Part shown: piece after piece, positions 252-62,758 of the stretch
How the letters are laid out: every line of letters starts with the position of its first letter
Numbering within the stretch: position 1 is the first letter of the stretch
DNA from: a virus
IMG/VR virus record: IMGVR_UViG_3300044608_000251
Location: 1 to 64,000 of that record
Length of the DNA stretch: 64,000 nt
Strand: one strand, 5' to 3'
Made by a program: the position numbers and the translations under genes
The notes under the pieces: generated by a model
The model's database searches: none
Seen by the model: the letters and a program-made list of their open reading frames with translations, nothing else
What the model was told of the DNA's origin: nothing

Positions 252-438
252 CAGTAACCATACACAAGAAGTTCAGATACAAGAACTTCAAGCCGAAATC
301 GTTAAATACCATCAATGGTGTAATGAGTGGCGAAGGCTCAACGACGGGCTAGAAGAAGAACTCCAACGCACACAGTTTATGTTGATGGACACCCAAGCGG
401 TGATTAGCTACCTAGAAGGAAAGCTATTTAACCAATGA
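223..438 (+). CDS. Small coiled-coil protein
   Basis: 71-residue hydrophilic protein with a continuous heptad-like stretch (about residues 15-65, rich in Glu, Leu and Gln) that suggests a coiled coil. It has no signal peptide or known motif. Its start lies inside the 3' end of the VRR-NUC gene and its stop overlaps the next ATG (ATGA), so translation is probably coupled. Function unknown. Confidence 0.6.
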   Translation: MKKKAVVELSSNHTQEVQIQELQAEIVKYHQWCNEWRRLNDGLEEELQRTQFMLMDTQAVISYLEGKLFNQ

Positions 439-1292
439 AGAAGTTATGTGTAGTCAACTTTTGGGAGGGTGCATTTGATGGGGATTTCTTTGACTTCTTT
501 TTTAATGCTTGTTTTGATGACGTTACTTATATTAGTGATCCTCATAGTGCCGATCTTATTATTACTTCTGTGTTTGGAAATGTTCAGACTCCTCCCGAAA
601 AGACATTGGCTTTCATTGGAGAAAATGTTAGACCAAGTTTTTTAGGTTACTCTCATTCTTTGTCTTTTGATTGGGATAATTACGGTGGTCGTAACCATCG
701 CCTTCCACTATGGTATTCGAGGTTAGCGTGGGATGGCTTTGAACAAAAACCTAGGCGGGATAACCACCACAATCATGGCTATGAACAACTCATTCCCATT
801 AAACCGTTAACACAACGTCGTAAGTTAGACATAGCAAGCAAAGATAAGTTCTGCGTTTTAATTGCCAACAACCCCGAAGGCTTACGGGTTAACTTGTACA
901 ACTCTTTGTCTAAGTACAAACAAGTAGATGGCTATGGAAATATGTTTGGTAACCCCTTACGAAAATCTAAGTTCGCTATCCTACCTGAATATAAATTCTG
1001 CTTATGTCCTGAAAACTCTATCTATGATGGGTACATTACTGAGAAGCTAATTGATGCGTATGCAGGGCTAACCGTGCCTATATATAGCGGCGATGCGTCT
1101 GTGGCTGAAGACTTTAATTACATGGCTTTCTTAAACTACCAAGAGTTTAAAGATATGAGTAGATTTGTAGAGTACGTTAGAGGGTGGAATATCAATCAAG
1201 AGATGTATAAACATACGTATGAGCAACCCCTGCTACTCAAAGAACCAAGCCTTAATGGGGCAATTGAATTTGTACGGAGCATAGTCAAATGA
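435..1292 (+). CDS. GT10-like fucosyltransferase
   Basis: Glycosyltransferase resembling the C-terminal half of family 10 (alpha-1,3/1,4-fucosyltransferases), which transfer fucose from GDP-fucose to a glycan. The diagnostic block lies at about residues 187-219: KFCLCPENS, then DGYITEKLIDAY and TVPIYSGD, matching the family pattern of a K-F-x-x-x-x-EN-S segment followed by YITEK. There is no membrane anchor, so it is probably cytosolic. It stands in the same operon as a FkbM methyltransferase, a radical SAM enzyme and two GT-A transferases. Possible acceptors are host lipopolysaccharide or a virion glycan (inference). The start overlaps the previous stop. Confidence 0.75.
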   Translation: MKKLCVVNFWEGAFDGDFFDFFFNACFDDVTYISDPHSADLIITSVFGNVQTPPEKTLAFIGENVRPSFLGYSHSLSFDWDNYGGRNHRLPLWYSRLAWDGFEQKPRRDNHHNHGYEQLIPIKPLTQRRKLDIASKDKFCVLIANNPEGLRVNLYNSLSKYKQVDGYGNMFGNPLRKSKFAILPEYKFCLCPENSIYDGYITEKLIDAYAGLTVPIYSGDASVAEDFNYMAFLNYQEFKDMSRFVEYVRGWNINQEMYKHTYEQPLLLKEPSLNGAIEFVRSIVK

Positions 1293-1465
1293 GTTTTGGT
1301 CAGTTAAAAAAAGAGTATGCGATGAGTCAGAAAGATGTTGCCAAAGAACTGCATTTAGATATAAAAACTGTGCGAACTGTTGAAAGATCAGGCATAGAAA
1401 AGATTAAAAAAGCATTAGCCGAACGAGGTGTTTCGTTAAAAGATTTGATAGAGGTATATAAATGA
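1289..1465 (+). CDS. 58-residue HTH protein
   Basis: Short gene fitted exactly between its neighbours, with ATGA overlaps at both ends. The translation contains MSQKDVAKELHLDIKTVR followed by TVERSGIEKIKKALAERG, a helix-turn-helix with the look of an Xre or sigma region 4 recognition unit. It is probably a small DNA-binding regulator, or a structured partner of another protein. No other domain fits in this length. The exact coupling at both ends is the main evidence that it is real. Confidence 0.6.
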   Translation: MSFGQLKKEYAMSQKDVAKELHLDIKTVRTVERSGIEKIKKALAERGVSLKDLIEVYK

Positions 1466-2184
1466 AGGAAGAAATACAAAAACTGATTGATTCCCTACGA
1501 CCAGTCAAAACTAAGTTTGATCTTATTCGAGTCGGCGGCGACAACGATGGTGGCTATTTACTACCTAACGACTTATTAGGTATCACCGCATGCTTTTCAC
1601 CAGGTGTAGACGTTACGGCATCATTTGAAATAAATCTTTGTAAGCGTGGGATTGGCTCTCACCTTGCTGATGCTTCAGTTGATAGTGTGCCTAAAGGATT
1701 TACCCCCCGTTCGTTTACCAAGAAGTATTTAGGTGGGTATAACGATGATACCCATATGACCCTAGCCGCATGGATGTATGAGCAACGGGCTTTCATGGGG
1801 GATTTTATATTACAGATGGATATAGAAGGTGGCGAATACACAACTCTATTATGTACACCGCCTGACGTATTGCGTAAGTTTAGGATTATTGCAGTAGAAA
1901 TACACAATGTGCAGACATGGTTTACCCCGTTAGCTTGGCCTGTAGTTAAAACATTCTTTGAAAAGCTATTAGAAGATTTCCGTGTAGTACACAACCATCC
2001 TAATAACAACTGCCCATTTATAGAAGCAGATGGAATTTTGATGCCGACAGTATTTGAATTAACTTTGTTGCGCAAGGATAGAACGATTGCGTTGGGTTAT
2101 TGTGATCAGTTCCCGCACTCATTAGATATGCCTAATGTATTAGATAAACCTGATCGCCCATTGCCTGAAGGATGGTACAAATGA
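1462..2184 (+). CDS. FkbM-family methyltransferase
   Basis: SAM-dependent methyltransferase-like protein of the FkbM type, a family that usually O-methylates sugars or glycan-linked products. The block QMDIEGGEYTTLL (residues 118-130) matches the family's D-x-EG-x-E core, followed by the strand IIAVEIHN. The N-terminal nucleotide-binding part (IRVGGDNDGGYLLP, residues 22-35) is also typical of FkbM-like proteins in glycan loci. Neighbours are a GT10 transferase and a radical SAM protein, so sugar modification is the likely job. Substrate unknown. Confidence 0.65.
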   Translation: MKEEIQKLIDSLRPVKTKFDLIRVGGDNDGGYLLPNDLLGITACFSPGVDVTASFEINLCKRGIGSHLADASVDSVPKGFTPRSFTKKYLGGYNDDTHMTLAAWMYEQRAFMGDFILQMDIEGGEYTTLLCTPPDVLRKFRIIAVEIHNVQTWFTPLAWPVVKTFFEKLLEDFRVVHNHPNNNCPFIEADGILMPTVFELTLLRKDRTIALGYCDQFPHSLDMPNVLDKPDRPLPEGWYK

Positions 2185-2435
2185 ACAATGAACGCAGTCT
2201 TGCCAAAGAAATAACAGAAGGATTTGAAGCACTTAAATCTATGAGAAACAATGAACCAGTAGCGTGGACTGCGTGTTTAGATTGTGGCAAAAGAGTTACA
2301 GGCGATTCTATTCATACTTGCTCACCACAGTTAAAGACACTAACAGATGAGGAAATAGATGCTGTTTGGTTTAGTTACAAAGGCGATATTAAAGATTTTG
2401 CTAGAGCAATACTAAGAAAGGCACAAGAGAAATGA
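2181..2435 (+). CDS. Small Cys-containing hypothetical protein
   Basis: 84-residue protein starting at the ATG that overlaps the preceding stop (ATGA); an in-frame ATG nine bases upstream is less likely. A short ACLDCGKRV segment followed by HTC could form a small zinc knuckle. The C-terminal half (LTDEEIDAVWF...DFARAILRKAQEK) resembles a short helical element repeated in phage hypothetical proteins. No function assigned. Confidence 0.55.
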   Translation: MNNERSLAKEITEGFEALKSMRNNEPVAWTACLDCGKRVTGDSIHTCSPQLKTLTDEEIDAVWFSYKGDIKDFARAILRKAQEK

Positions 2436-3295
2436 GAGAGAAGTACGGAATAGTACATAGCGATAGCCCTGTCATGGAGTTAACAACCATGATTGGATGC
2501 CCGTTGATGTGTACTTTTTGCCCCCAAGATAATTTACGTACGCAATATGGTACGTCTGAGAAGTATATGAGTCAAGTTGATCTGACAAAGATGCTAGTCA
2601 AGTTACCAAAAAACACCCGTATTGATTTCTCAGGTATGTCAGAGCCTTGGGCTAACCCCGAATGTACTTCTATGTTAGAAGAAGTTTTATACATGGGGTT
2701 TAACGTAGCCATCTACTCAACCCTTTATGGTATGACTGACCCTGAACGGGTACGCAAAGTATTAGAAGAACACCCTAACCAAGTAGAAGTAATTATGCTA
2801 CACCTGCCTGATGCCAATGGAAACATGAAGGGCTGGAAGAACAGTGAAGAGTGGCAAAGAGCCGCCGCTATCATCTCTCATACTAACGTACCATGTCGTG
2901 TCGGTGCGATGACTATGGATAGGAACGGTATAGTTCATCCCGAACTGCAATCTATGGTGGGTCAATTAGCTGGATGGGTAGGGCATACTAGGGCAGATAG
3001 CCTTAACTTGGAACAGATTGCTGGTCAAGCAATTAGCATAACACCCCATAATAAGTTCTCATTAACTTGTAGGTCAACACCATTCTATGATCGGAATGTT
3101 CTTCTTCCTGATGGTTCTGTGGTTCTATGTTGCATGGACTACGACCTTAAACACATTATTGGAAACCTTTTAGAGCAGACCTACGATGAGGTAATGCAGG
3201 GTAAACCCTTGCAGGACTTGGTTGCCATAAACGAGGTTTCTGAATTTAATAAATGTAGTATTTGTAAATCTTGTGAAAACGTGAGGAAGATATGA
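2432..3295 (+). CDS. Radical SAM protein with C-terminal Cys cluster
   Basis: Radical S-adenosylmethionine enzyme. The N-terminal CPLMCTFC segment (C23, C27, C30) gives the CxxxCxxC motif that holds the 4Fe-4S cluster used to cleave SAM. The region DFSGMSEPWANPE fits the following barrel strands. A second set of cysteines near the C-terminus (C233/C234, C275, C278, C281) resembles a SPASM or twitch auxiliary-cluster domain, used in peptide- or sugar-modifying members. At 287 residues it is compact for a SPASM enzyme. It lies between glycan-type genes with four-base overlaps. Substrate not predictable. Confidence 0.8.
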   Translation: MREKYGIVHSDSPVMELTTMIGCPLMCTFCPQDNLRTQYGTSEKYMSQVDLTKMLVKLPKNTRIDFSGMSEPWANPECTSMLEEVLYMGFNVAIYSTLYGMTDPERVRKVLEEHPNQVEVIMLHLPDANGNMKGWKNSEEWQRAAAIISHTNVPCRVGAMTMDRNGIVHPELQSMVGQLAGWVGHTRADSLNLEQIAGQAISITPHNKFSLTCRSTPFYDRNVLLPDGSVVLCCMDYDLKHIIGNLLEQTYDEVMQGKPLQDLVAINEVSEFNKCSICKSCENVRKI

Positions 3296-3555
3296 GAAGA
3301 AAAGAGCCTACTGATAAAGAAATAGAAGATTTACCTGATGGATATATTGAAGCGCTGGAAAGGGCAATGACTTTTACAGCGGAAATAAAACTTAAATTAA
3401 GAGATGACTTTGCCATAAGAATTATGGCTGGCATGTGTGCTGGTGATTGGAAGTTAGACCTGTCTGATGGTAAGACGTGGGAAAAAGCGGCTTCTAAACG
3501 TGCTTATGAGATAGCGGATGCAATGATTAAAGAGAGGGAGATTAGTAATGTTTAA
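3292..3555 (+). CDS. Hypothetical protein
   Basis: 87-residue protein, mostly helical and charged, with no recognisable motif. The start overlaps the radical SAM stop by four bases and the 3' end overlaps the next small gene by eight bases. Kept as real because of operon spacing and preceding purines (GAGGAAGAT). Confidence 0.5.
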   Translation: MRRKEPTDKEIEDLPDGYIEALERAMTFTAEIKLKLRDDFAIRIMAGMCAGDWKLDLSDGKTWEKAASKRAYEIADAMIKEREISNV

Positions 3556-3712
3556 AAATATTGCAATAGTCGTACTTCTTATTGTTATAGGTATTTATTT
3601 TTGGGGGGATAGCCCTGCCCAAGAGTGTCCTGTGGAAAAGAAAACCCCACGATGGGAAGACAATTGCATCATTCAAAAGAGTGGTGATAGGGAGATAAAG
3701 ACATGCGGATAA
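3548..3712 (+). CDS. 54-residue membrane-anchored protein
   Basis: Begins MFKNIAIVVLLIVIGIYFW, one N-terminal hydrophobic segment that would act as a signal anchor. The polar remainder carries three cysteines (QEC, DNC, KTC). The ribosome binding site is GAGGGAG. Its end overlaps the following glycosyltransferase start by ten bases. Probably an inner-membrane micropeptide with a periplasmic tail. Function unknown. Confidence 0.55.
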   Translation: MFKNIAIVVLLIVIGIYFWGDSPAQECPVEKKTPRWEDNCIIQKSGDREIKTCG

Positions 3713-4419
3713 TGGTAATTACCCCTACTACTGGGAAAGATACGCTATTGAAGGCAATAGAAAGTGTGCGGAACCAAACTATCAAGACTGAGCATTTAGT
3801 TGTGGTAGACGGAAATGGGGATATATACACCCGCTTTGCCAATATGCTTTTAAATAAAATCAGCCCCAACTACGATAACCCGTTACAGTTTATTCCTTTA
3901 CCCGAAAACGTAGGTGGTAATGGGTGGTACGGACACCGAGTCTATGCGGCTATGCCACTAATGGTAAACGCTGATTACATTCTTTTTTTGGATGAGGACA
4001 ATTGGTTCGAGCCTAATCATGTGGAAACCATGATTAACAAAATAAAAAGTAAAGACTTAATGTGGGCTTACAGTTTAAGGAAGATATACGATGAACGAGG
4101 ACAATATGTTTGCGATGATGATTGCGAGGCACTCGGTAGATACCCGACGTTTTATGATCATACTGTCAACTTTGTTGATACTAACTGCTATTGCTTTAAG
4201 CGTGAGTATTTGGTCAGTATTGCTCATTCTTTCTACGGGCAGTGGGGTGCTGACAGACCGTTCTATAAATCTGCCTCAACAAATTTGCCTGCCTTCGGAT
4301 GCACAGGAGAGGCTACGGTTAATTACCGAGCGCCCGAAAGATTACTTAGCATGTTTAGAGAGGGCAATGAAGTCATGAAAAAAGCCTATGGGGAACCTTT
4401 ACCTTGGAGAAAAAAATGA
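3703..4419 (+). CDS. Glycosyltransferase family 2-like
   Basis: GT-A fold glycosyltransferase. The N-terminus MVITPTTGKDTLLKAIESVR with HLVVVDGNGD is the nucleotide-sugar binding start of family 2. FLDEDNWF (D97-E98-D99) provides the DxD metal-binding motif. At 238 residues it is a minimal soluble domain with no membrane segment, so it probably acts in the cytosol on a phage- or host-derived glycan. It is the third sugar-type enzyme in this operon. Sugar and acceptor unknown. Confidence 0.75.
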   Translation: MRIMVITPTTGKDTLLKAIESVRNQTIKTEHLVVVDGNGDIYTRFANMLLNKISPNYDNPLQFIPLPENVGGNGWYGHRVYAAMPLMVNADYILFLDEDNWFEPNHVETMINKIKSKDLMWAYSLRKIYDERGQYVCDDDCEALGRYPTFYDHTVNFVDTNCYCFKREYLVSIAHSFYGQWGADRPFYKSASTNLPAFGCTGEATVNYRAPERLLSMFREGNEVMKKAYGEPLPWRKK

Positions 4420-4580
4420 TCGAAACGTTAGTCAAACCACAACCACTAGATAATGACGTTGCAGTAGTAAAAATATTACAACTGATGGGGCAGTTAACCC
4501 CGAACGATATTGCCTATGTGTTAAGGGTATCAGCGCAAGTTTATATGGCTGTTAGAGAGGATAAAAATAATGGAAATTAA
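4416..4580 (+). CDS. 54-residue hypothetical protein
   Basis: Starts at an ATGA overlap with the glycosyltransferase stop and ends ten bases into the next gene. The sequence contains VAVVKILQLMGQLTPNDIAY followed by VLRVSAQVYMAV, which looks like a small helical or HTH-like unit. There is no close match I can name. Supported by position and coupling only. Confidence 0.5.
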   Translation: MIETLVKPQPLDNDVAVVKILQLMGQLTPNDIAYVLRVSAQVYMAVREDKNNGN

Positions 4581-4785
4581 ATTACGCATTATTAAAGAAA
4601 ACAAAGACGGGTCTGCCAACGCAGAAATCGACTTTGATAAAGAAGGTTTAGAGTTCTTAGTACAAGAAGGCATACTGCATATACTAGAAGCCTACATTAA
4701 ACAGAACGAGAACGCCAAAAAAGGGGCTAAGCTACGTAAGAAGTTAGCTAAAAAAGAAGAATTTGATATAGACGGGAGATGCTAA
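4570..4785 (+). CDS. Hypothetical lysine-rich protein
   Basis: 71 residues. A beta-like N-terminus (MEIKLRIIKENKDGSANAEI) is followed by a helical segment and a very basic tail (KKGAKLRKKLAKKEE). This arrangement recurs in small phage proteins of unknown function. It directly abuts the next start codon. The tail could bind nucleic acid (inference). Confidence 0.55.
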   Translation: MEIKLRIIKENKDGSANAEIDFDKEGLEFLVQEGILHILEAYIKQNENAKKGAKLRKKLAKKEEFDIDGRC

Positions 4786-5061
4786 ATGAATGGATTATGG
4801 GAATTAGCAAACAAGGTTAGTGAGATTGGTTGCAGGATATACGGCATTAAGTGCGTTGCTGAGATGCAAGGCGAGGCTGATTCAGACAACATGAATAGCG
4901 GGGTATCTTGGACTATTGCAGAAATGTGCGACATTTATAGCGACAAATTAGAAGAATTATCATCAGCAATTATGTCTGTTAGTCACGAACAAGAAGAACG
5001 TATCCGAGAATTAGAAGCGCTTGTAGCCAAACACGAACTGAAAAAAGGGAGAAAGAAATGA
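4786..5061 (+). CDS. Hypothetical protein
   Basis: 91 residues with a predicted C-terminal helix or coiled coil (SVSHEQEERIRELEALVAKH) and a basic tail. It starts on the base after the preceding stop and overlaps the next gene by four bases. No family recognised. Confidence 0.5.
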   Translation: MNGLWELANKVSEIGCRIYGIKCVAEMQGEADSDNMNSGVSWTIAEMCDIYSDKLEELSSAIMSVSHEQEERIRELEALVAKHELKKGRKK

Positions 5062-5852
5062 GTTTTAAAAAAGATAAACAACCCATGATGCCAGTCATCC
5101 AACAAGCGCCATTGGCTAAACTGTTTGTAGCTACACCCATGTACGGCGGTATGTGTACAGGCTTGTATGCGTCGGCAGTAATGCAATGCGTAGGCGCTTT
5201 TGGTCAGGCTGGTATTCAGATGTACTACTCGTTTATGATGAACGAGTCTTTGATTACCCGTGCCCGTAACAGTATGGCTTATGACTTTATGAAGTCTGAT
5301 GCTACACATCTTATGTTTATTGATGCAGACATTGGGTTTAATCCACAAGACATCCCCCGCATGCTTATGGCGGACAAGGATATTATCTGTGGTATCTATC
5401 CTAAGAAAGAGATTAACTGGGTAGAAGTTACCCAAGCAGTAAAAGCTGGTGTTCCGCCTGACCAACTGAGTCAGCATACTGGGGCATTTGTTCTTAACTT
5501 ACCATCAGGTGTACAGAGTGCAACAGGAAACATTAATGAGCCTATTGAGATTGCCAATGGTGGTACAGGGTTTATGTTAATTAAACGTAAAGTATTTGAT
5601 ACCCTTGCTGATAAAGTGCCAAGCTATACAAACGATATGTACCATGCGGTAGACACAGTACGAGAAGTTAAGGTAATTAGAGAATACTTTGCCACCAGCA
5701 TTGATGAAGAATCTAACCGTTTGTTATCAGAGGATTACCACTTCTGTAAGATTGCAAGGCAAGCTGGGTTTAAAGTTTGGTGTGCGCCTTGGGCTAGTTT
5801 TAGTCATACAGGTTCTTATAACTTTAGTGGGCAACTACCGAGGTCAGCATGA
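5058..5852 (+). CDS. GT-A type glycosyltransferase-like protein
   Basis: 264 residues. The N-terminal strand KLFVATPMYGGMCTG is followed by NESLITRARN and LMFIDADIGF (D89-x-D91), the order expected for a nucleotide-sugar-dependent GT-A fold with its DxD metal site. This group is widespread in phages and usually annotated as a glycosyltransferase; the acceptor is unknown. The later NGGTGFMLIKR and SEDYHFCKIARQAGF segments match the acceptor-side part of the fold. Together with the GT10, GT2, FkbM and radical SAM genes it makes a broad glycan-modifying set. Confidence 0.65.
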   Translation: MSFKKDKQPMMPVIQQAPLAKLFVATPMYGGMCTGLYASAVMQCVGAFGQAGIQMYYSFMMNESLITRARNSMAYDFMKSDATHLMFIDADIGFNPQDIPRMLMADKDIICGIYPKKEINWVEVTQAVKAGVPPDQLSQHTGAFVLNLPSGVQSATGNINEPIEIANGGTGFMLIKRKVFDTLADKVPSYTNDMYHAVDTVREVKVIREYFATSIDEESNRLLSEDYHFCKIARQAGFKVWCAPWASFSHTGSYNFSGQLPRSA

Positions 5853-7264: not shown

Positions 7265-9090
7265 ACTTAATAACGATTGACTTTGAGACTTACTACGATA
7301 AGTCTACATATAGTTTATCGAAATCGACCACAGAAGAATATGTGCGTGACCCCCGTTTTGAGGTAATCGGAGTAGCTGTTAAGGTTAACAACGAAGAAAC
7401 CGAGTGGGCTAGTGGTACACACGAACAGATTAAGAAGTGGTTACAAGGATTTGATTGGGCTAACTCAGGTGCGCTTGCACACAACATGATGTTTGATGGC
7501 TTTATCCTTTCCGAAAGATTTGGCATTGAACCAAAGATATACCTTGATACTTTATGTATGGGTCGTGGGCTACATGGTGTGGAAGTTGGTGGCAGCCTAG
7601 CTGCATTAACTACAAGATACAACTTAGGTGTTAAGGGTGATGAGGTTATCGCAGCATCCGGGAAAACTCGGATCGACTTTACAGATGAAGAACTTAATAG
7701 ATACGGTGATTACTGTGTCAATGATGTGGAATTAACCTACAAACTATTTCATACAATCATGGCAAAGGGGTTCCCCAAAAAGGAACTAAAGATCATCGAC
7801 CTAACCCTTCGGATGTTTACCTTGCCGAAACTAGATTTAAACCTAACTATGTTAGAGCAACATCTACGAAACATTCAGGATAAGAAAGCCCTACTATTAT
7901 TAGAGGCTGACGTTGAGAAGACCGAGTTGGCTTCTAACCCGAAGTTTGCCGCCCTCTTAGAAAAGATGGGTGTGCCTGTGCCAATAAAGATTAGCCCTGC
8001 AACAGGAAAGGAAACATTTGCCCTTGCTAAAAATGATGAAGAGTTTAAGGCTTTGGCTGAACACCCTGATCTTAGAGTTCAGGCACTCGTTGCCGCTAGA
8101 CTGGGGACTAAGTCAACCCTTGAGGAAACCCGAACAGAAAGATTTATCGGAATCTCAAAAAGAGGATTGATGCCAGTCCCCCTAAAATACTATGCGGCAC
8201 ATACGGGAAGGTGGGGTGGTAGTGATTCCCTAAACTTGCAGAACCTTCCAGCACGGGGTGATAACGGTGGGAAGTTAAAGAAAGCAATTGAAGCTCCTGA
8301 AGGCTATGTAATTATTGATTCAGACTCATCACAGATTGAAGCACGGGTACTTGCTTGGTTAGCAGGACAGAACGATTTGGTGGAGGCATTTAAGAATGGC
8401 GAAGACGTTTACAAGATCATGGCTTCGGCTATATATGAAAAGAGCGCAGATAAAATCACGAAGGAGGAACGCTTCGTCGGGAAGACGACCATCCTTGGCG
8501 CTGGCTACGGGATGGGGGCAAAGAAATTCGGGGCACAACTTAAGACGTTCGGTACGAGTGTTACTGAAGAGGAAGCCCGTCATATCATCGAGGTATACCG
8601 ACAAACATATCCTAGCATTGTTAGCTTGTGGCGAGAAGCGCAGACGGCCCTAGAAGCATTAACTAAAGGCATGACAACATCTTTGGGTAAAGAAGGTGTA
8701 CTAAGTCTGGTCCCAGAAGAACGTGGAATTCGATTGCCAAGTGGCTTGTTGCTTCGTTACGACGGATTGATAGCACTACGGGGTGAGAAAGGTATGCAAT
8801 ACAATTACAGGACTCGCTTCGGATGGAACAATATCTATGGCGGTAAGGTTATTGAGAACGTCTGCCAAGCCCTTGCTAGATGTATCATTGGCGAACAGAT
8901 GATTAAGATTGCTAAGAAGTATGATGTCGTATTGACGGTTCATGATGCGGTTGCATGTCTTGCACGTGAGGAAGAAGCTGAAGAAGCCCAAGCCTACGTA
9001 GAGGAGTGCATGAAGTGGACACCTGAGTGGGCAGATGGTTTGCCTGTTAGTTGTGAGAGTGGGTACGGGAGGAGTTATGGAGATTGCTGA
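7261..9090 (+). CDS. Family A DNA polymerase with 3'-5' exonuclease domain
   Basis: Replicative polymerase of the Pol I type, as used by many podoviruses. The GTG start at the preceding stop (GTGA) gives 609 residues; an upstream TTG would add eleven. The N-terminal DnaQ-like exonuclease shows IDFET (D7, E9), HNMMFD and YCVNDVELTY. In the polymerase domain motif A is DSSQIEAR (D355, E360), motif B runs from R404 through K408 to Y416-G417, and motif C is TVHDAV (H561-D562). Motif C usually reads HDE, so Ala replaces the Glu while the metal-binding Asp remains. No 5'-3' exonuclease domain. Downstream nuclease and helicase genes complete a replication set. Confidence 0.93.
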   Translation: MNLITIDFETYYDKSTYSLSKSTTEEYVRDPRFEVIGVAVKVNNEETEWASGTHEQIKKWLQGFDWANSGALAHNMMFDGFILSERFGIEPKIYLDTLCMGRGLHGVEVGGSLAALTTRYNLGVKGDEVIAASGKTRIDFTDEELNRYGDYCVNDVELTYKLFHTIMAKGFPKKELKIIDLTLRMFTLPKLDLNLTMLEQHLRNIQDKKALLLLEADVEKTELASNPKFAALLEKMGVPVPIKISPATGKETFALAKNDEEFKALAEHPDLRVQALVAARLGTKSTLEETRTERFIGISKRGLMPVPLKYYAAHTGRWGGSDSLNLQNLPARGDNGGKLKKAIEAPEGYVIIDSDSSQIEARVLAWLAGQNDLVEAFKNGEDVYKIMASAIYEKSADKITKEERFVGKTTILGAGYGMGAKKFGAQLKTFGTSVTEEEARHIIEVYRQTYPSIVSLWREAQTALEALTKGMTTSLGKEGVLSLVPEERGIRLPSGLLLRYDGLIALRGEKGMQYNYRTRFGWNNIYGGKVIENVCQALARCIIGEQMIKIAKKYDVVLTVHDAVACLAREEEAEEAQAYVEECMKWTPEWADGLPVSCESGYGRSYGDC

Positions 9091-9683: not shown

Positions 9684-9884
9684 ATGAATTTAGAACCTGT
9701 GGGCGCAGTTGTTTTTGATTACGCAGATTTATTATTACGTGCTAGGACTAACCTACGTGGTTTTGAGAACGCTATGAATAGTCGTCACTTTGGTGAGGCA
9801 CACGAATATATGATGAACGCTTTTGTAGATGTACGATTATTAACCCATATATCAGGAGAATCTTGTGACAATAAGCAGGAGTGA
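9684..9884 (+). CDS. Hypothetical protein
   Basis: 66 residues from the ATG just after the sigma-like stop (an in-frame ATG lies 12 bases upstream). Predicted helical, containing FDYADLLLRARTNLRGFENA. The ribosome binding site is GATGAGGA. Its 3' end overlaps the GTG start of the next small gene. Function unknown. Confidence 0.5.
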   Translation: MNLEPVGAVVFDYADLLLRARTNLRGFENAMNSRHFGEAHEYMMNAFVDVRLLTHISGESCDNKQE

Positions 9885-10014
9885 CTTATTAAAAGAACTA
9901 ATGCCAGGACTTAAAGCATTGTTTGATATTGAATACGATAAATATAAGGATGATCCTCGTATGCCTGTCTTTGCTGAGAAACCAAGCTATGAGATTGAGG
10001 TAGATTTTGACTAA
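9865..10014 (+). CDS. 49-residue capsid N-terminus look-alike
   Basis: GTG start preceded by AGGAGA at a good distance; it ends eight bases into the next gene. The first 27 residues mirror the phage's own major capsid protein: both read ISRxxLLKEL, then PGLxALF and an EYxxY. I count 18 identities in 27 positions. After that the sequences diverge, and this protein ends with an acidic tail (EIEVDFD). At DNA level the two differ at many synonymous sites, so this is not a fresh duplication. It could interact with capsid subunits, scaffold or a capsid-sensing host factor. Function unknown. Confidence 0.65.
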   Translation: MTISRSDLLKELMPGLKALFDIEYDKYKDDPRMPVFAEKPSYEIEVDFD

Positions 10015-10675
10015 GATTCCAGCGTGGTCATACTCAAGCATTAAGTTGTTTGACCAATGTCCTAAGAAGTATTACCACCTACGGGTGGTTAGGGATGTTA
10101 AAGACCCACCCACGGATGCCATTATGTACGGCAAGTCTTTCCATGAAGCGGCGGAATTATATATCAAAGAAGGCAAGCCCATACCCCCACAATTTAGTTT
10201 TGCTAAGAACGCTTTGGATAATCTAAAACAGTTGGAAGGCGAGAAGTTGTGCGAGTATGAGATGGGTTTAACGGCTAGTTTAGAGCCTTGTGGGTTCAAA
10301 GACCCTAATGTGTGGTGGAGAGGGGTAGCTGACCTTGTTATCCTCAATGGCAAGGAAGCACGTTGCCTAGACTACAAGACGGGAAAGTCAGCTAAGTATG
10401 CGGATACTGACCAGCTAGAGCTTATGGCACTTGCTATGTTTAAGCACTTTCCTGAAGTAGAAAGGGTCAAAGGAGCACTGTTTTTCGTGGTCAGCAAGAA
10501 CTTCATAAAGGACTCGTATGATGGGGAGAATCAGGATAAAATGTGGGCTAAGTGGTTGGCAGAATTCAACAGGCTTAAGTTCGCTTACGAGAATGACGTT
10601 TGGAATCCTCGCCCAAGTGGGTTGTGTAAGAAATACTGCCCCGTTTTAGAGTGTCCTCACAACGGAAGAAATTAA
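10007..10675 (+). CDS. Cas4/AddB-like Fe-S PD-(D/E)xK nuclease
   Basis: 222 residues from a TTG start. It carries the RecB/Cas4 nuclease pattern: SIKLFDQCPKKYY at the N-terminus, GKSFHEAAELY (H46), GVADLV (D109), LDYKTGKS (D122, K124) and DQLELM (Q136). Four cysteines, C18 plus C207, C211 and C216, are placed as in Cas4 and AddB, where one N-terminal and three C-terminal Cys hold a 4Fe-4S cluster. Likely an exonuclease in recombination or replication-end processing. It lies between the polymerase and an SNF2 helicase. No Cas1 or Cas2 nearby, so a CRISPR role is not suggested. Confidence 0.8.
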   Translation: MTKIPAWSYSSIKLFDQCPKKYYHLRVVRDVKDPPTDAIMYGKSFHEAAELYIKEGKPIPPQFSFAKNALDNLKQLEGEKLCEYEMGLTASLEPCGFKDPNVWWRGVADLVILNGKEARCLDYKTGKSAKYADTDQLELMALAMFKHFPEVERVKGALFFVVSKNFIKDSYDGENQDKMWAKWLAEFNRLKFAYENDVWNPRPSGLCKKYCPVLECPHNGRN

Positions 10676-13497: not shown

Positions 13498-14370
13498 ATG
13501 AGCGAAATGACTCTATTTAAAGGTGGTTTACCTGCATACCTAAAAGGTACTGATGATGCAACTAATGCCCTAGCTGGTACAAGCGACGGTGGTGGTTTAG
13601 GTGCACGTCGTATATCAATTAAAGGCGGTGTATTCCGTGAATTTATTGGTGGTAAAGAATACCGAGTATCTGAAGAACGTTCTATGAACGTGGTAATTGT
13701 AAAAGCTGCTTCAAAAGTTTCCCGTATTTACTACTCAGGTAGTTATGTAGAAGGTGAAACTGTGTCCCCAACTTGCTGGTCTTCCGACAGCCAACGCCCT
13801 GATGAAAAGGTTAAGACTCCGCAGTCAGCCACCTGCTTAACTTGCCCAAAAAACATCAAAGGTTCAGGTCAAGGAGAGAGCCGTGCTTGCCGCTACCAAC
13901 AACGTCTAGCCGTCGTACTGGACAGCGAGGTAGATAAAGAAGAAGTTTATCAATTAGTACTGCCACCTACATCCGTGTTTGGTGATGGTGAAAAAGGTAA
14001 GCTCCCTTTACAAGCATATGCTCGTCATTTGAAGAATCACGGTACACCCATTACTGGTGTTGTTACTGAGATGCGATTTGACACAGCAAGCCCTACTCCT
14101 AAGTTAGTGTTCAAACCGTTGCGCCCTGTTACAGAAGAAGAGTATGCAGTTATTCAAAAACTCAAAGACTCTCCTGAAGCATTATCTGCAATAGCATTAA
14201 CGGTTGCACAAACTGATGGTGTTAAGGATAAGCCAAGTTTGAAGGCAGCACTACTTGCACCAGTAGAAGCAGAGGCTGTTGAAGAGCCTAAAAAAGCAGC
14301 ACCCAAGAAAGCCGTAGTTGGCAACGAACCTAAGTTAGAAGACTTAGTTGGTGAATGGGATGATGCTTAA
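13498..14370 (+). CDS. Putative ssDNA-binding protein with acidic tail
   Basis: 290 residues. The N-terminal half is rich in beta strands and Gly. A cysteine set (CW, then CLTCPKN and RACRY, about residues 99-139) could bind zinc. The C-terminus is an Ala/Lys/Pro-rich linker ending in LEDLVGEWDDA. A flexible linker with an acidic tip is typical of ssDNA-binding proteins, and the gene lies directly before the primase-helicase. I do not recognise an OB-fold by eye, so the role is an inference from tail and context. The ribosome binding site is AAGGAG. Confidence 0.5.
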   Translation: MSEMTLFKGGLPAYLKGTDDATNALAGTSDGGGLGARRISIKGGVFREFIGGKEYRVSEERSMNVVIVKAASKVSRIYYSGSYVEGETVSPTCWSSDSQRPDEKVKTPQSATCLTCPKNIKGSGQGESRACRYQQRLAVVLDSEVDKEEVYQLVLPPTSVFGDGEKGKLPLQAYARHLKNHGTPITGVVTEMRFDTASPTPKLVFKPLRPVTEEEYAVIQKLKDSPEALSAIALTVAQTDGVKDKPSLKAALLAPVEAEAVEEPKKAAPKKAVVGNEPKLEDLVGEWDDA

Positions 14371-46820: not shown

Positions 46821-47258
46821 ATGACAACAATAGTAGGCGACTGGAGAAATAAAGTATTAGTAGCCGATAGTCAATTCTCCGATGATGATACTGGACTTAA
46901 ATACTTTGAAGACAAAATTCTTCCTATAGATGGTGGTTGGCTTGGGGTAGCGGGTAATTGGTCAGATGCAGAAAAAGTTTTAGATTACTTAAATAAAAAA
47001 ACCAAAACAAAACCCAAACTAAAATCAGATAGTTCTTTTTTAAAACTAACCAAAGACGGCTTATTTGCTTGTGGGGATGATCTTGAATGGGAAAGAGTGC
47101 GAACCTTTATGGCTATTGGCAGCGGGGCTATGGCTGCAGAAGTATGTATGCGTATGGGTTTAACCGCAGAAGATGCAGTTAAGTGGGCATGTAATGTAGA
47201 TTTAAAAAGTCACGAACCAATTAAAACCTACGCTTTAGACAATAAAAATGCCTTATAA
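46821..47258 (+). CDS. HslV/proteasome-beta-like Ntn hydrolase
   Basis: 145 residues. It starts MTTIVGDW; loss of Met would expose Thr1 as nucleophile, as in HslV. LVADSQ gives Asp15 and FEDKILPI gives Lys31, the other two parts of the proteasome-type active site. The later segment FMAIGSGAMAAEVCMRMG, with TAEDAVKWAC, matches the G-SGxxxA helix of the fold. Shorter than HslV (about 175). No HslU-type unfoldase is in the window. It could degrade short peptides, use a host unfoldase, or be a regulator; unknown. Confidence 0.75.
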   Translation: MTTIVGDWRNKVLVADSQFSDDDTGLKYFEDKILPIDGGWLGVAGNWSDAEKVLDYLNKKTKTKPKLKSDSSFLKLTKDGLFACGDDLEWERVRTFMAIGSGAMAAEVCMRMGLTAEDAVKWACNVDLKSHEPIKTYALDNKNAL

Positions 47259-47601
47259 AGACCCAGAAGTAAAGAAAAGAAAACACAGAGAATATAGCCG
47301 TAAACATTATGAGGCTAATAAAGAACAAGTAATTGCTCTAACGGCAGAAAATAAAAAGAAAGCTAGAGTAGATTGGGCAAGTTTTAAAGCTACCCTTAAA
47401 TGTACTGTTTGTGGGGAGGATCACCCAGCAGCACTAGACTTCCACCATGAAGACCCAGCCACTAAGGACCATGCGGTTAGCTGGTTTATTAAAAACTCTC
47501 AATTTACACGGGCTATAGAAGAAGCCCTAAAGTGCAGAGTCTTATGCGCTAATTGCCACAGAAAACATCACTGGGAAGAAAAGAAAAACCCCACCGGGTA
47601 A
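47248..47601 (+). CDS. HNH endonuclease
   Basis: 117 residues. A basic N-terminal helix (KKRKHREYSRKHYEANKEQV) precedes the HNH fold: CTVCGEDHPAALDFHHEDP and CRVLCANCHRKHHW, with two CxxC zinc pairs and the catalytic His pair in DFHH. Typical free-standing phage HNH nuclease, perhaps a homing enzyme that mobilised this cassette. Its last codons overlap the terminator that serves the capsid operon on the other strand. Confidence 0.85.
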   Translation: MPYKDPEVKKRKHREYSRKHYEANKEQVIALTAENKKKARVDWASFKATLKCTVCGEDHPAALDFHHEDPATKDHAVSWFIKNSQFTRAIEEALKCRVLCANCHRKHHWEEKKNPTG

Positions 47602-47633: not shown

Positions 47634-48542
47634 TTAAGCGCCAGCAGAGCCAAACATTCCGAGTGGATCAGACCAACCGAAAGAATAACGCTCACGAGAC
47701 TTGTAACGAACGTTACCAGTATCGAAGTCACCATCCATGCTGTTCTGTAATGGAATACGAACAAAATGCTTCATACCATTTGGAACATCAGTAGTTAGGA
47801 ACCAAGCATTGGTGTCGGTCAAGAAGTGGTTAATTGTGTAACCTTCAGAGACAGAACCATTGTTCTTGATAGCGTTGATGTCGTTGTCGTTTGTACCAAC
47901 ACGCAATTCAGTTTCGAGCAAACGAGTTGCAACGAATTGTAATGCAGGAGGAACAACCAACTTCTTAGGCTTAGCAGCGATCAACAGACCACGCTCATCA
48001 GTCCAAGCAGCGATTTGAATTACAGCGGCTTCTAAAGAAGTCTCATTCAAGTCAGATGCAGTAGATGGAACGTTGCTGTTTGTACCGCCAGAAACCAAAG
48101 GATGTGATGCAGAGAACAAAGGAACACCATCACCACCGTTGTAACCAGTAGTGAAACCGTTATTCAATACAGCAGCAGCCTTAACTTGCTTGGTATAAGA
48201 CATGGAACGAGCCAAAGCCTTTGTATAACGAGCTGACAAAGAGTCATACAAGTTATCTTCAATAGCTTCTTCAGTCAAACTGAAGCCTTGGGCGATTGTT
48301 TCATGGTTGTAACGAGCAGTCCATGCTTCTTGACCGTTGTCATAAGCGATGGCAGAGCCTTCGTTTTTAACAGGGGCGGCGCTAAAGCCAGACAATTTGG
48401 TTTCTTCTTCGAAGGAACGCTCTGAGGTCTCTGTATCGTAGATCTCTTTGTGTTCTTCGCCGTAGCGAGCGTACTCAAGACCAAACAATGCATTCAAACC
48501 GGGTAAAAGCTCTTTTAGGAGCTGTGCACGAGAAATAGCCAT
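47634..48542 (-). CDS. Major capsid protein
   Basis: 302 residues. SRAQLLKELLPGLNALFGLE with the acidic RYGEEHKEIYDTETSERSFE is the N-terminal arm of a common major head protein group. AARYxKALARSMSYTK-like helix, SHPLVSGG and the end YKSRERYSFGWSDPLGMFGS are further conserved blocks. It probably has an HK97-type fold. It follows scaffold and decoration genes and is the last gene before a terminator, consistent with high expression. The 9865-10014 gene copies its N-terminus. Confidence 0.85.
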   Translation of the reverse strand: MAISRAQLLKELLPGLNALFGLEYARYGEEHKEIYDTETSERSFEEETKLSGFSAAPVKNEGSAIAYDNGQEAWTARYNHETIAQGFSLTEEAIEDNLYDSLSARYTKALARSMSYTKQVKAAAVLNNGFTTGYNGGDGVPLFSASHPLVSGGTNSNVPSTASDLNETSLEAAVIQIAAWTDERGLLIAAKPKKLVVPPALQFVATRLLETELRVGTNDNDINAIKNNGSVSEGYTINHFLTDTNAWFLTTDVPNGMKHFVRIPLQNSMDGDFDTGNVRYKSRERYSFGWSDPLGMFGSAGA

Positions 48543-49206: not shown

Positions 49207-49659
49207 TTAATTATTACCTTTGCCAAAGCTAGTCGTGGATTTACGCTCATTAAAGAGTGGCATCCGTGGGTCGCTTTGACGCATTAAATTGTTATCTACA
49301 GCATCCGTTTGAGCATCGCTTTGTTTAGCATAATAAGCATTACGCTGAGTAACGAACTCAATTGGGGTTTTGCAAAGTAACAATCCGCCAATCTCAATAT
49401 TGTCTTTAAAACGACTATTGGGATCAACTAACAGTTGAAATTTAGGTTGTTCTTCAATTGATACAGGCTCCCAACCTTCTCGCAATTTAGCGGAAAGATT
49501 GCGTGGATCTGCTGTATTTAATGTAGAAGTACGAACCCAGCGATAAGCATAACCAGCCTGTTTGTCAGGCTCTGGGAGAAGTTCTGCTGGCATCCACCGT
49601 TTAGGGCGCTCAGAAAATTCACGGTTGTCTACTTCACGGTCAAGTCTATTTGTAGCCAT
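49207..49659 (-). CDS. Hypothetical head-region protein
   Basis: 150 residues. WMPAELLPEPDKQAGYAYRW followed by REGWEPVSIEEQP and LLLCKTPIEFVTQRNAYYAK form a conserved pattern in head gene clusters of similar phages. It lies between the scaffold and the capsid-associated gene. Role unknown; an assembly factor is likely by position. Confidence 0.55.
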   Translation of the reverse strand: MATNRLDREVDNREFSERPKRWMPAELLPEPDKQAGYAYRWVRTSTLNTADPRNLSAKLREGWEPVSIEEQPKFQLLVDPNSRFKDNIEIGGLLLCKTPIEFVTQRNAYYAKQSDAQTDAVDNNLMRQSDPRMPLFNERKSTTSFGKGNN

Positions 49660-49660
49660 G

Positions 49661-50620
49661 TTAGGCCTCCAATTTTAAAAGTTCACGGACATATTGCTCA
49701 GGGGTAAGACCAAGTTTTTTAGCTATCGCAACTTGCGATGACTTTAAACGGATCTTTTTCGGTGCTGTCGACCGAGTGGCTGGCGCTACTACCGTGCTAG
49801 GTTTAGCTCTAGGAGTGTCTTCCTTATGCTCTACCTCTACTTCTGGTTCCAAATCCTCAAAATTCTCTGGAAACCTTTTTCGCATCGTCCGGTCCAACGT
49901 AGCGTAATACTCATCAGAACCAATTGCAGCACCCTGTCTTTTCAGCTTCTCATGGAGTCCAAGAGCTGCTGCCGTCATTTCTTCATCCTGTCCGAACCAA
50001 GAGTTTTGACGTTGCCAATTGTTTAGTTTGGCATCAGTAGGGGGTTGCTGGTACTGTTGATTAGTTTGTACCTCAAAATTCTCTTCTTGTAAAGGGGCTG
50101 GAGCAAAGTTTTTAGCATTCTCCATTCCAAGAGTAGCTTGTGTAATCGCTTGCTGCGCCTCTGCCAGAGCATCAGAATCACCTGCATCGTAGGCTTCTTT
50201 GTAGGCTTTTTTAGCCGCAGAGAGCTTTAATTCAGTAGATTCAGTTATTGCTGTGTGCCGTGCTTGCTGATTACTATTTACTAATTCTTTAAACTTGCGG
50301 TTTTCTGCCAGTAAACGATTAGTTACATCTAGTGCCTCTTGTCGCTCACGTTCAGCAGAATCGGCACGACGACGTTCATCGTTCCAAACACGCTTCATAC
50401 GAATTAGCTTATCTTTAGCTTCCTTACTGTACTTATCTAAGTCATCCACTTCAACTTCAAGTGCTTTAACTTTTTCAGGTGTAGTAGGGGTTCTGCCACG
50501 ATCTTCTTCGGGTGTATCATCTTCAATCTCAATTTCAAGATCGTCTTCTACGGGTTTACCCTGATCTTCAGTTTCCTGTTCATCGGGGAACTTAAATTCT
50601 TCAGTTTGCATTTCAGCCAT
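49661..50620 (-). CDS. Scaffolding-like protein
   Basis: 319 residues. The N-terminal 60 residues are highly acidic (EDDLEIEIEDDTPEEDRG). They are followed by a long coiled coil (about residues 48-115, ALEVEVDDLDKYSKEAKDKL onward) and a Gln-rich middle. The C-terminal helix (SQVAIAKKLGLTPEQYVREL) is the usual capsid-binding end of scaffold proteins in this group. Position immediately upstream of head genes supports an internal scaffold guiding procapsid assembly. Confidence 0.7.
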   Translation of the reverse strand: MAEMQTEEFKFPDEQETEDQGKPVEDDLEIEIEDDTPEEDRGRTPTTPEKVKALEVEVDDLDKYSKEAKDKLIRMKRVWNDERRRADSAERERQEALDVTNRLLAENRKFKELVNSNQQARHTAITESTELKLSAAKKAYKEAYDAGDSDALAEAQQAITQATLGMENAKNFAPAPLQEENFEVQTNQQYQQPPTDAKLNNWQRQNSWFGQDEEMTAAALGLHEKLKRQGAAIGSDEYYATLDRTMRKRFPENFEDLEPEVEVEHKEDTPRAKPSTVVAPATRSTAPKKIRLKSSQVAIAKKLGLTPEQYVRELLKLEA

Positions 50621-61481: not shown

Positions 61482-61604
61482 ATGTGTAGATTAGAAAAAA
61501 TCTGTATGGGTGCAGTAGTAACTTGCTTATGCTTGTTCTTACTGACTGTACCTTTTATATTTGTTTACTCAGCATTTAAGGAGCAATTATGTCTTTATCA
61601 ATAG
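61482..61604 (+). CDS. 40-residue membrane micropeptide
   Basis: ATG preceded by AAGGGGGG. The central MGAVVTCLCLFLLTVPFIFV is one membrane helix with three further cysteines nearby. It overlaps the VWA gene start by 16 bases, so translation is likely coupled. Could anchor the ATPase/VWA pair to the inner membrane (speculation). Confidence 0.55.
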   Translation: MCRLEKICMGAVVTCLCLFLLTVPFIFVYSAFKEQLCLYQ

Positions 61605-62758
61605 GCAAACAACTAACCGCCGAGCAGAGATTACGCAAGGCAACCACCGACATCATCGGGCATAACGACTTCATTGCACTAACAGGTGTATTGATGATTG
61701 GTAAGAAGATGGTAGATGACAAGGTACAGACTGCATGCACCAATGGTCGTGACGAAGCATACGGTAGAGCATTTGTAGATGAGCTAACTGATGCCGAGTT
61801 TAGATTCGTGGTACTGCATGAGTGTTATCACAAGATGTATAAACACTTGACCACGTGGAAGAACTTGCACGACATAGATGCTCAACGTGCGAACATGGCA
61901 TGCGACTACGTCATTAACTTAAAACTTGCCGAAACCGAAGCAGGTAAGACGGGTTGGATACGGTTACCTGATGGTGGGTTAATAGATAAGCAGTATGCAG
62001 GGATGGACTCTAAGCAGGTGTTCGATCTGTTACCCCCACAAGGTAAGGACAAGGGTGGCAGTAACTATACACCGTTTGATGACCACGATTGGGATGGCGC
62101 ACAGGAGATGGGTGAAGCTGAACAAGGTGAACTAGCCAAGCAGTTAGACCAAGCTATACGTCAGGGTGCGATCTTAGCAGGTAAGGTAGGGTCGGGTGGT
62201 AATCGTGATGTGGGTGAACTGTTACAGACCAAGCAGGATTGGCGTGAAGTCCTCAGAGATTTTGTGACAACAACTTGTGCAGGGAAGGACTACTCTACAT
62301 GGAAGCGCCCTAACCGTAGGTATGTGGGCATGGACATCCTGATGCCATCATCTATCAGCGAATCAGTCGGTGAGATCGTGGTAGGTATTGATACGTCAGG
62401 GTCTATTGGTAATGATGAACTTAACGCATTCCTAGCCGAGATCGTAGGTATCTGTGACCAAGTCAAGCCGAGCAAGGTTCGTGTACTGTATTGGGACACC
62501 GAAGTATGTAGTGAGGAAGTGTACTTAGATCATGAGTATGCCAACTTACCTACATCTACTAAGCCCAAGGGTGGGGGTGGTACTGACCCACGTTGCGTAC
62601 CTTTGTATATGAACACACACGGTATCAAGCCCGAAGCAGTAGTCATGCTAACCGATGGGTACGTAGGTTCATGGGGTACGTGGTCTGTGCCTGTGTTGTG
62701 GTGCATCTTGAATAACCGTTCGGTTAACCCAAGCGTGGGTAAAGCCGTACATATCTAG
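61589..62758 (+). CDS. HExxH metallopeptidase-like VWA protein (DUF2201 type)
   Basis: 389 residues in two domains. The N-terminal part has RFVVLHECYHKMYKH, an HExxH zinc motif (H77, E78, H81), with a following MACDYVINLKL helix. The C-terminal von Willebrand A-like domain has IVVGIDTSGSIGNDE (DTSGS at 268-272), the metal-ion site. The combination matches the putative metallopeptidase/VWA-like family (DUF2201). With the MoxR ATPase it would form an ATP-driven complex. Peptidase activity is not shown for the family as far as I know. Confidence 0.85.
   Translation: MSLSIGKQLTAEQRLRKATTDIIGHNDFIALTGVLMIGKKMVDDKVQTACTNGRDEAYGRAFVDELTDAEFRFVVLHECYHKMYKHLTTWKNLHDIDAQRANMACDYVINLKLAETEAGKTGWIRLPDGGLIDKQYAGMDSKQVFDLLPPQGKDKGGSNYTPFDDHDWDGAQEMGEAEQGELAKQLDQAIRQGAILAGKVGSGGNRDVGELLQTKQDWREVLRDFVTTTCAGKDYSTWKRPNRRYVGMDILMPSSISESVGEIVVGIDTSGSIGNDELNAFLAEIVGICDQVKPSKVRVLYWDTEVCSEEVYLDHEYANLPTSTKPKGGGGTDPRCVPLYMNTHGIKPEAVVMLTDGYVGSWGTWSVPVLWCILNNRSVNPSVGKAVHI

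Follow-up and report, generated by a model that had tools for sequence, protein, structure and literature searches.

A 64,000-nucleotide stretch of DNA from a freshwater phage (IMG/VR virus record IMGVR_UViG_3300044608_000251, positions 1 to 64,000; hereafter the window) encodes, among phage replication genes, a 49-residue protein made of pieces of the phage's own head proteins. Its minigene (9865-10014, plus strand) belongs to a family of small, translationally coupled genes that form arrays upstream of a nuclease gene in related phages. The products of these genes, called minis below, join fragments homologous to head proteins to a shared C-terminal tail. They are conserved as peptides, and in one lineage a cassette has been lost exactly between two copies of a repeat. 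One possible reading, slightly less likely than not, is that a clade of phages has a modular cassette system, in which each member would combine a head-assembly peptide with a constant tail, so that one tail partner could be directed to, or away from, several head sites or host sensors. The cassettes would be swapped via a repeat that plays three parts, as ribosome-binding site, as coding sequence and as recombination junction. The anatomy of the system is well supported, its mechanism is not.

A minigene built from two head proteins

The peptide encoded by the minigene, MTISRSDLLKELMPGLKALFDIEYDKYKDDPRMPVFAEKPSYEIEVDFD, starts at a GTG codon, and its gene overlaps both neighbours, the preceding small gene at its 3' end and the PDDEXK nuclease gene at its start. 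Its first 27 residues (9865-9945, plus strand) are identical at 18 positions, in a direct alignment, to the N-terminus MAISRAQLLKELLPGLNALFGLEYARY of the major capsid protein (MCP; these residues are encoded at 48462-48542, minus strand). The same N-terminal arm was the sole non-self match of the peptide when its own 65,394-bp virus record was searched with tblastn (E=2.3e-8), and phmmer also retrieved it among the 985 open reading frames (ORFs) of the window (E=4.8e-8). By comparison, none of 600 shuffled mini heads matched MCP or scaffold at E<0.1. The 18 identities listed in the initial annotation of this DNA were confirmed, and the gene does have a ribosome-binding site of its own (AGGAGA, 9854-9859, plus strand), located within the upstream ORF, 5 nt before the GTG.

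As the initial annotation had also proposed, the peptide rather than the DNA has been kept: the minigene and the MCP gene have diverged to 47 identical nucleotides out of 81, with 10 of 27 third positions matching, which rules out a recent DNA copy of the capsid gene. The protein contains only the first 30 or so residues of MCP, not a full HK97-type capsid domain, and has no capsid family match in Pfam or PHROGs. Its description as a mimic of the capsid N-terminus proved right for the N-arm likeness of a free-standing gene. That description was nevertheless incomplete, as a second head piece and a shared tail follow, and the gene is not a lone MCP mimic, since it belongs to a family that also imitates the C-terminus of the scaffold and further parts of MCP.

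The second piece, DPRMPVF (residues 30-36; 9952-9972, plus strand), repeats the conserved DPRMPLF found near the C-terminus of a 150-residue protein of the head cluster (49207-49659, minus strand; PHROG 36003). By E-value alone this likeness is weak (0.55 among the window ORFs, 0.022 among the structural ORFs). We accept it because the motif is rare, with about 6e-5 occurrences expected by chance when all window ORFs are scanned, and because it recurs as a separate cassette. In three related contigs (L007, L018 and L025), a DPRMP or DLRMP piece occupies a minigene of its own, so the window minigene looks like a fusion of two cassettes carrying pieces of two head proteins.

The initial annotation had made its reading depend on the persistence of the gene in relatives and on selection acting on the peptide, and both were found. 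The minigene is present unchanged (100%) in L001-L003, three contigs that come from other metagenomes, and is 86-98% conserved in L005 and L004, besides the relatives that carry arrays. Between the window and L005, dN is 0.071 and dS 0.71 (8 and 13 changes, respectively), a ratio of about 0.10 that, coming from one pair, gives an indication of purifying selection; the nuclease and upstream genes are likewise conserved.

Arrays of tailed head fragments in related phages

Relatives were collected from IMG/VR through the nuclease gene. By our own count, the site upstream of this gene, in the replication module, harbours one to four translationally coupled minigenes in nine lineages, each minigene consisting of one head-protein fragment followed by the shared tail. 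The fragments correspond to MCP residues 1-30, about 80-131 or 163-212, to the C-terminus of the scaffold, or to the DPRMP terminus, and all the cassette sources that could be recognised in the arrays are head-assembly proteins. The window minigene has the three hallmarks of the family, namely head homology, a tail with a ribosome site and a position upstream of the nuclease.

The composition of the arrays varies. An N-arm cassette is combined with scaffold C-terminus and DPRMP cassettes in L007, with MCP helix and DPRMP cassettes in L018, with DLRMP and MCP helix cassettes in L025, and with scaffold C-terminus, MCP helix and MCP 163-212 cassettes in L024, while L035, L036 and L004 have the N-arm and the MCP helix. 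The array of L179 includes a helix mimic of MCP 74-132 (39% identity over 57 residues, E=4.5e-11); its first cassette is weakly N-arm-like, with an E-value of 0.003 to the mini profile that is mostly due to the tail, and has no MCP match.

The homology of the heads holds in both directions. When a profile of 86 MCP ORFs was run against 36,312 ORFs, all small-ORF matches at E<0.5 were tailed array genes. Conversely, a profile built from seven helix minis retrieved the helix of MCP from all 24 MCP-bearing contigs and from all six cultured phage genomes tested (HTVC023P, HTVC027P, 023Pt_psg01, Pag-Yong1, DSL-LC04 and CRP-901), with E-values of 1e-8 to 4e-12. After removal of the tail, six of the seven helix minis had MCP 75-131 as their top match among the window ORFs (E-values of 6e-10 to 0.03), and the seventh, from L035, also ranked MCP first (E=1.5). 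Similarly, the tail-less scaffold-type minis of L006/L007 and L024 retrieved the scaffold C-terminus at the top (1e-3 and 2e-4), and the tail-less 163-212 mini retrieved MCP (0.003). In searches of PHROGs and Pfam made with no prior expectation, the expected family came out on top for two minis (PHROG 371, major head protein; PHROG 28737, a scaffold family; Mu-like_gpT). The minis do differ from MCP at residues invariant in 40 MCPs, as Q7 is replaced by an acidic residue in eight of nine distinct minis and G21 in six of nine.

A few other genes recall the MCP helix. At the same site, L055/L056 (5408-5995) and L063 (4633-5418) encode a protein of about 190 residues with an MCP-helix-like C-terminus and no tail; this helix matches the mini profile (9e-4 and 2e-5) and resembles the window MCP only weakly (E=1.8). 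A neighbouring protein in L055/L056 (in ORF 4914-5426) carries QYQSALYRSMMDAK, perhaps another helix mimic, with no significant match. In L239-L241, an 89-residue gene (L239: 3995-4264) starts with the MCP helix-like SYTQALAQSMGTTK, lacks the EVDF tail and adjoins a homologue of window gene 61589-62758; the L239 genome also has its own MCP. The use of the MCP helix may therefore extend further, whether or not the tail is attached, as judged from these likenesses. In the same three contigs, an ORF (L239: 7532-7822) includes RYRAKERYAFGWSDP, resembling the MCP C-terminus RYKSRERYSFGWSDP (E 3.6e-6). It overlaps gene 7362-7826 in another frame, third codon positions match at 6 of 15, and it represents either a further capsid fragment or a coincidence.

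A shared tail that doubles as ribosome site and junction

The C-terminus of every array mini reads [YHW]x[IVTK]EVDF or differs little from it; in the window minigene, the last eight residues are YEIEVDFD (9988-10011, plus strand). Within the tail codons lies GAGGT or a sequence close to it, and after a spacer comes the ATG or TTG of the next gene. In the window, this Shine-Dalgarno-like site (9997-10001, plus strand) lies 5 nt before the TTG start of the nuclease gene at 10007, and in relatives it is the cassette junction. A role as ribosome site accounts for part of the conservation of the tail. As a full explanation, such an artefact is rejected by the pattern of codon positions: third positions are free to vary in the codons for V, D and the I/V before them, and hardly any change is seen at the first and second positions of the codons for E, V, D and F, a pattern which argues that the tail peptide is itself selected. 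This comparison covered 24 deduplicated array tails and one chance match from the window (HRVGVDF), counted by script. Beyond the minigene, the tail was not found elsewhere in the window, and a DNA pattern scan of IMG/VR for the tail followed by a start codon returned only the known arrays and apparently unrelated ORFs.

The same element marks where cassettes come and go. Compared with L173 and L170, L172 lacks the 163-212 cassette, the loss running exactly from one copy of TAGAGGTGGACTTTGA to another; the flanking sequences are nearly identical. Compared with the window, L004 has an extra helix cassette at the tail. The distribution of the arrays is patchy. No N-arm mini was found in the 24 MCP-bearing contigs, a scan of 55 records with the MCP profile confined N-arm minis to the known array contigs, and the six cultured relatives have no minigene even at E<=10. 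Some of the records are fragments, in which absence is not proof.

Parent genes and genomic neighbourhood

The MCP gene (47634-48542, minus strand) is the parent of three mimicked segments. Its product itself has an HK97-type capsid domain (Pfam Phage_capsid_4, E=6e-14; Mu-like_gpT; PHROG 371). In addition to the N-arm, which is nearly identical across the phage family, the segments are residues 80-131 (48150-48305, minus strand), assigned by position to the P-domain helix, and residues 163-212 (47907-48056, minus strand), whose cassette occurs in L024, L170, L171, L173 and L174. Stretches 1-30 and 80-131 are rich in residues invariant among the 40 MCPs. The putative scaffold gene (49661-50620) contributes the C-terminus (49664-49756, minus strand) that is mimicked in L006/L007 and L024.

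The array site is flanked upstream by the small gene mentioned above (9684-9884, plus strand), which codes for a helical protein of 66 residues, and downstream by the PDDEXK/RecB-like exonuclease gene (10007-10675, plus strand; PF12705, E=2.8e-17; PHROG 69 exonuclease). Elsewhere in the window, two plus-strand genes (46821-47258 and 47248-47601) sit beside the MCP gene within the minus-strand head cluster; by eye, one product resembles an HslV/proteasome-type Ntn hydrolase and the other an HNH endonuclease. The start of the window (435-5852) holds a block of genes that look, also by eye, sugar-transferase-like and radical-SAM-like. No family match backs the identification of the replication-module protein encoded at 13498-14370 as a single-stranded DNA-binding protein.

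What the minis might do

The initial annotation had put forward regulation of capsid assembly, occupation of a scaffold or GroES-like site, or a defence decoy as possible functions; of these, a role at the scaffold interface and a decoy role both fit the data. As for the mechanism, we tentatively suggest that the minis work where coat and scaffold meet, as adaptors or as competitors. Their heads would bind the same procapsid surfaces as the parent proteins, chiefly those of the contact between coat and scaffold, the common tail would bind one shared partner, and the minis would delay, tune or tether head assembly. They are probably made before the head genes are expressed, which we infer from their location among replication genes. 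We put the interface first because the cassettes include pieces corresponding to both partners of a contact described in phage P22. In the P22 procapsid, the C-terminal helix-turn-helix of the scaffold binds the N-arm of the coat and also its R101, a residue within the P-domain range 79-127 (PMC9965877). Unlike the P22 elements, the minis are small proteins in their own right, with genes in the replication module, and their sequences are unrelated to those of P22 as far as tested.

Several observations weigh against this proposal. The coat and scaffold of P22 are analogues only. An AlphaFold model of MCP with 40 homologues reached a pLDDT of 35 and was not used, which leaves the placement of the mimicked segments in the fold unsupported, and the MCP profile retrieved no relative in a sequence search of the PDB. 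Moreover, arrays were not detected in most relatives that share the same MCP N-arm, so they are accessory, a status at least as compatible with a role in an arms race as with core control of assembly.

The leading alternative belongs to such an arms race. The minis may be decoys, with heads that fill the pockets of immune sensors of newly made capsid or scaffold without triggering them, tails that block or recruit something, and cassettes that turn over with the local sensors; we consider this possible but less probable. Defences that sense capsids are known. CapRel-SJ46 binds MCP directly, and escape changes cluster at MCP residues 111-124 (PMC9712102); Lit, PifA and a TIR system also sense capsids. 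The patchiness of the arrays, the exact gain and loss of cassettes and their site in the replication module would suit an accessory, early anti-defence role, and the mimicked stretches 1-30 and 80-131 are those rich in invariant residues. However, a simple decoy needs neither three mimicked virion proteins in one array nor a common tail, these hosts have no known sensor of this kind, and a copy of the trigger made as a decoy can set off the sensor. A phage decoy built from capsid fragments was not found in the literature searched.

It is unlikely that the minis serve to interfere with competitors, as trans-dominant capsid fragments that would poison the head assembly of co-infecting relatives or satellites. 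There is a precedent in p22 of the yeast retrotransposon Ty1, a Gag fragment made by the element itself that blocks particle assembly through Gag (PMC4599808), and the acidic replacements at Q7 and G21, invariant in MCP, would be in keeping with it. Nevertheless, the near-identity of the MCP N-arm across the family predicts self-poisoning, and no mechanism of discrimination is visible.

Nor is it likely that the minis are coupling or cargo tags, whose heads would anchor them to scaffold or coat inside the procapsid, leaving the acidic-aromatic tail to hold a protein of replication or packaging. The tail does resemble, in outline, the acidic-aromatic C-terminus of the conserved replication-module protein encoded at 13498-14370 (PHROG 27714; LVGEWDDA, or LVNEFDDE in relatives), and in two other lineages, L055/L056 and L063, larger proteins encoded at this site have a similar helix fused to them. 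This resemblance of the tail is one of composition, with no alignment, and no partner is known. Finally, it is improbable that the minis are by-products of gene birth with little function, produced as the ribosome-site repeat captures head-gene fragments by recombination: cassettes are indeed joined and lost at that repeat, but the low dN/dS and the amino-acid-level conservation of the tail weaken the idea, no recent DNA similarity to the MCP gene is left, and the array cassettes of recognisable source all have head-assembly heads.

Relation to known systems and implications

The use of a fragment of one's own capsid protein as a separate protein that acts in trans on assembly has an analogue in Ty1 p22. 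The phage minis differ in being diverged stand-alone genes, several to an array, derived from several head proteins and sharing a tail, and for them an action on assembly is a proposal. For the tagged, swappable array of cassettes from multiple proteins, no counterpart is known. Host sensing of short MCP stretches is exemplified by the T4 Gol segment with Lit and by MCP with CapRel-SJ46, but in those cases the trigger is the capsid protein itself. The window phage shares the head gene order of HTVC023P-type podoviruses (GroES, scaffold, a 150-residue protein, a protein of about 200 residues, MCP), yet the six cultured relatives are without a detectable minigene. No description of stand-alone phage minigenes for capsid fragments was found in a literature search that most subscription papers and preprints lay outside.

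If the minis act on assembly, phages would possess a trans-acting layer of control built from copies of interface peptides. Should host sensors be the target instead, the cassettes would point to the surfaces of the capsid that these sensors read. In both cases, the cassettes single out, without a screen, short peptides of capsid and scaffold that have been retained in evolution as stand-alone proteins and that lend themselves to direct tests of binding, inhibition of assembly or evasion of defence.
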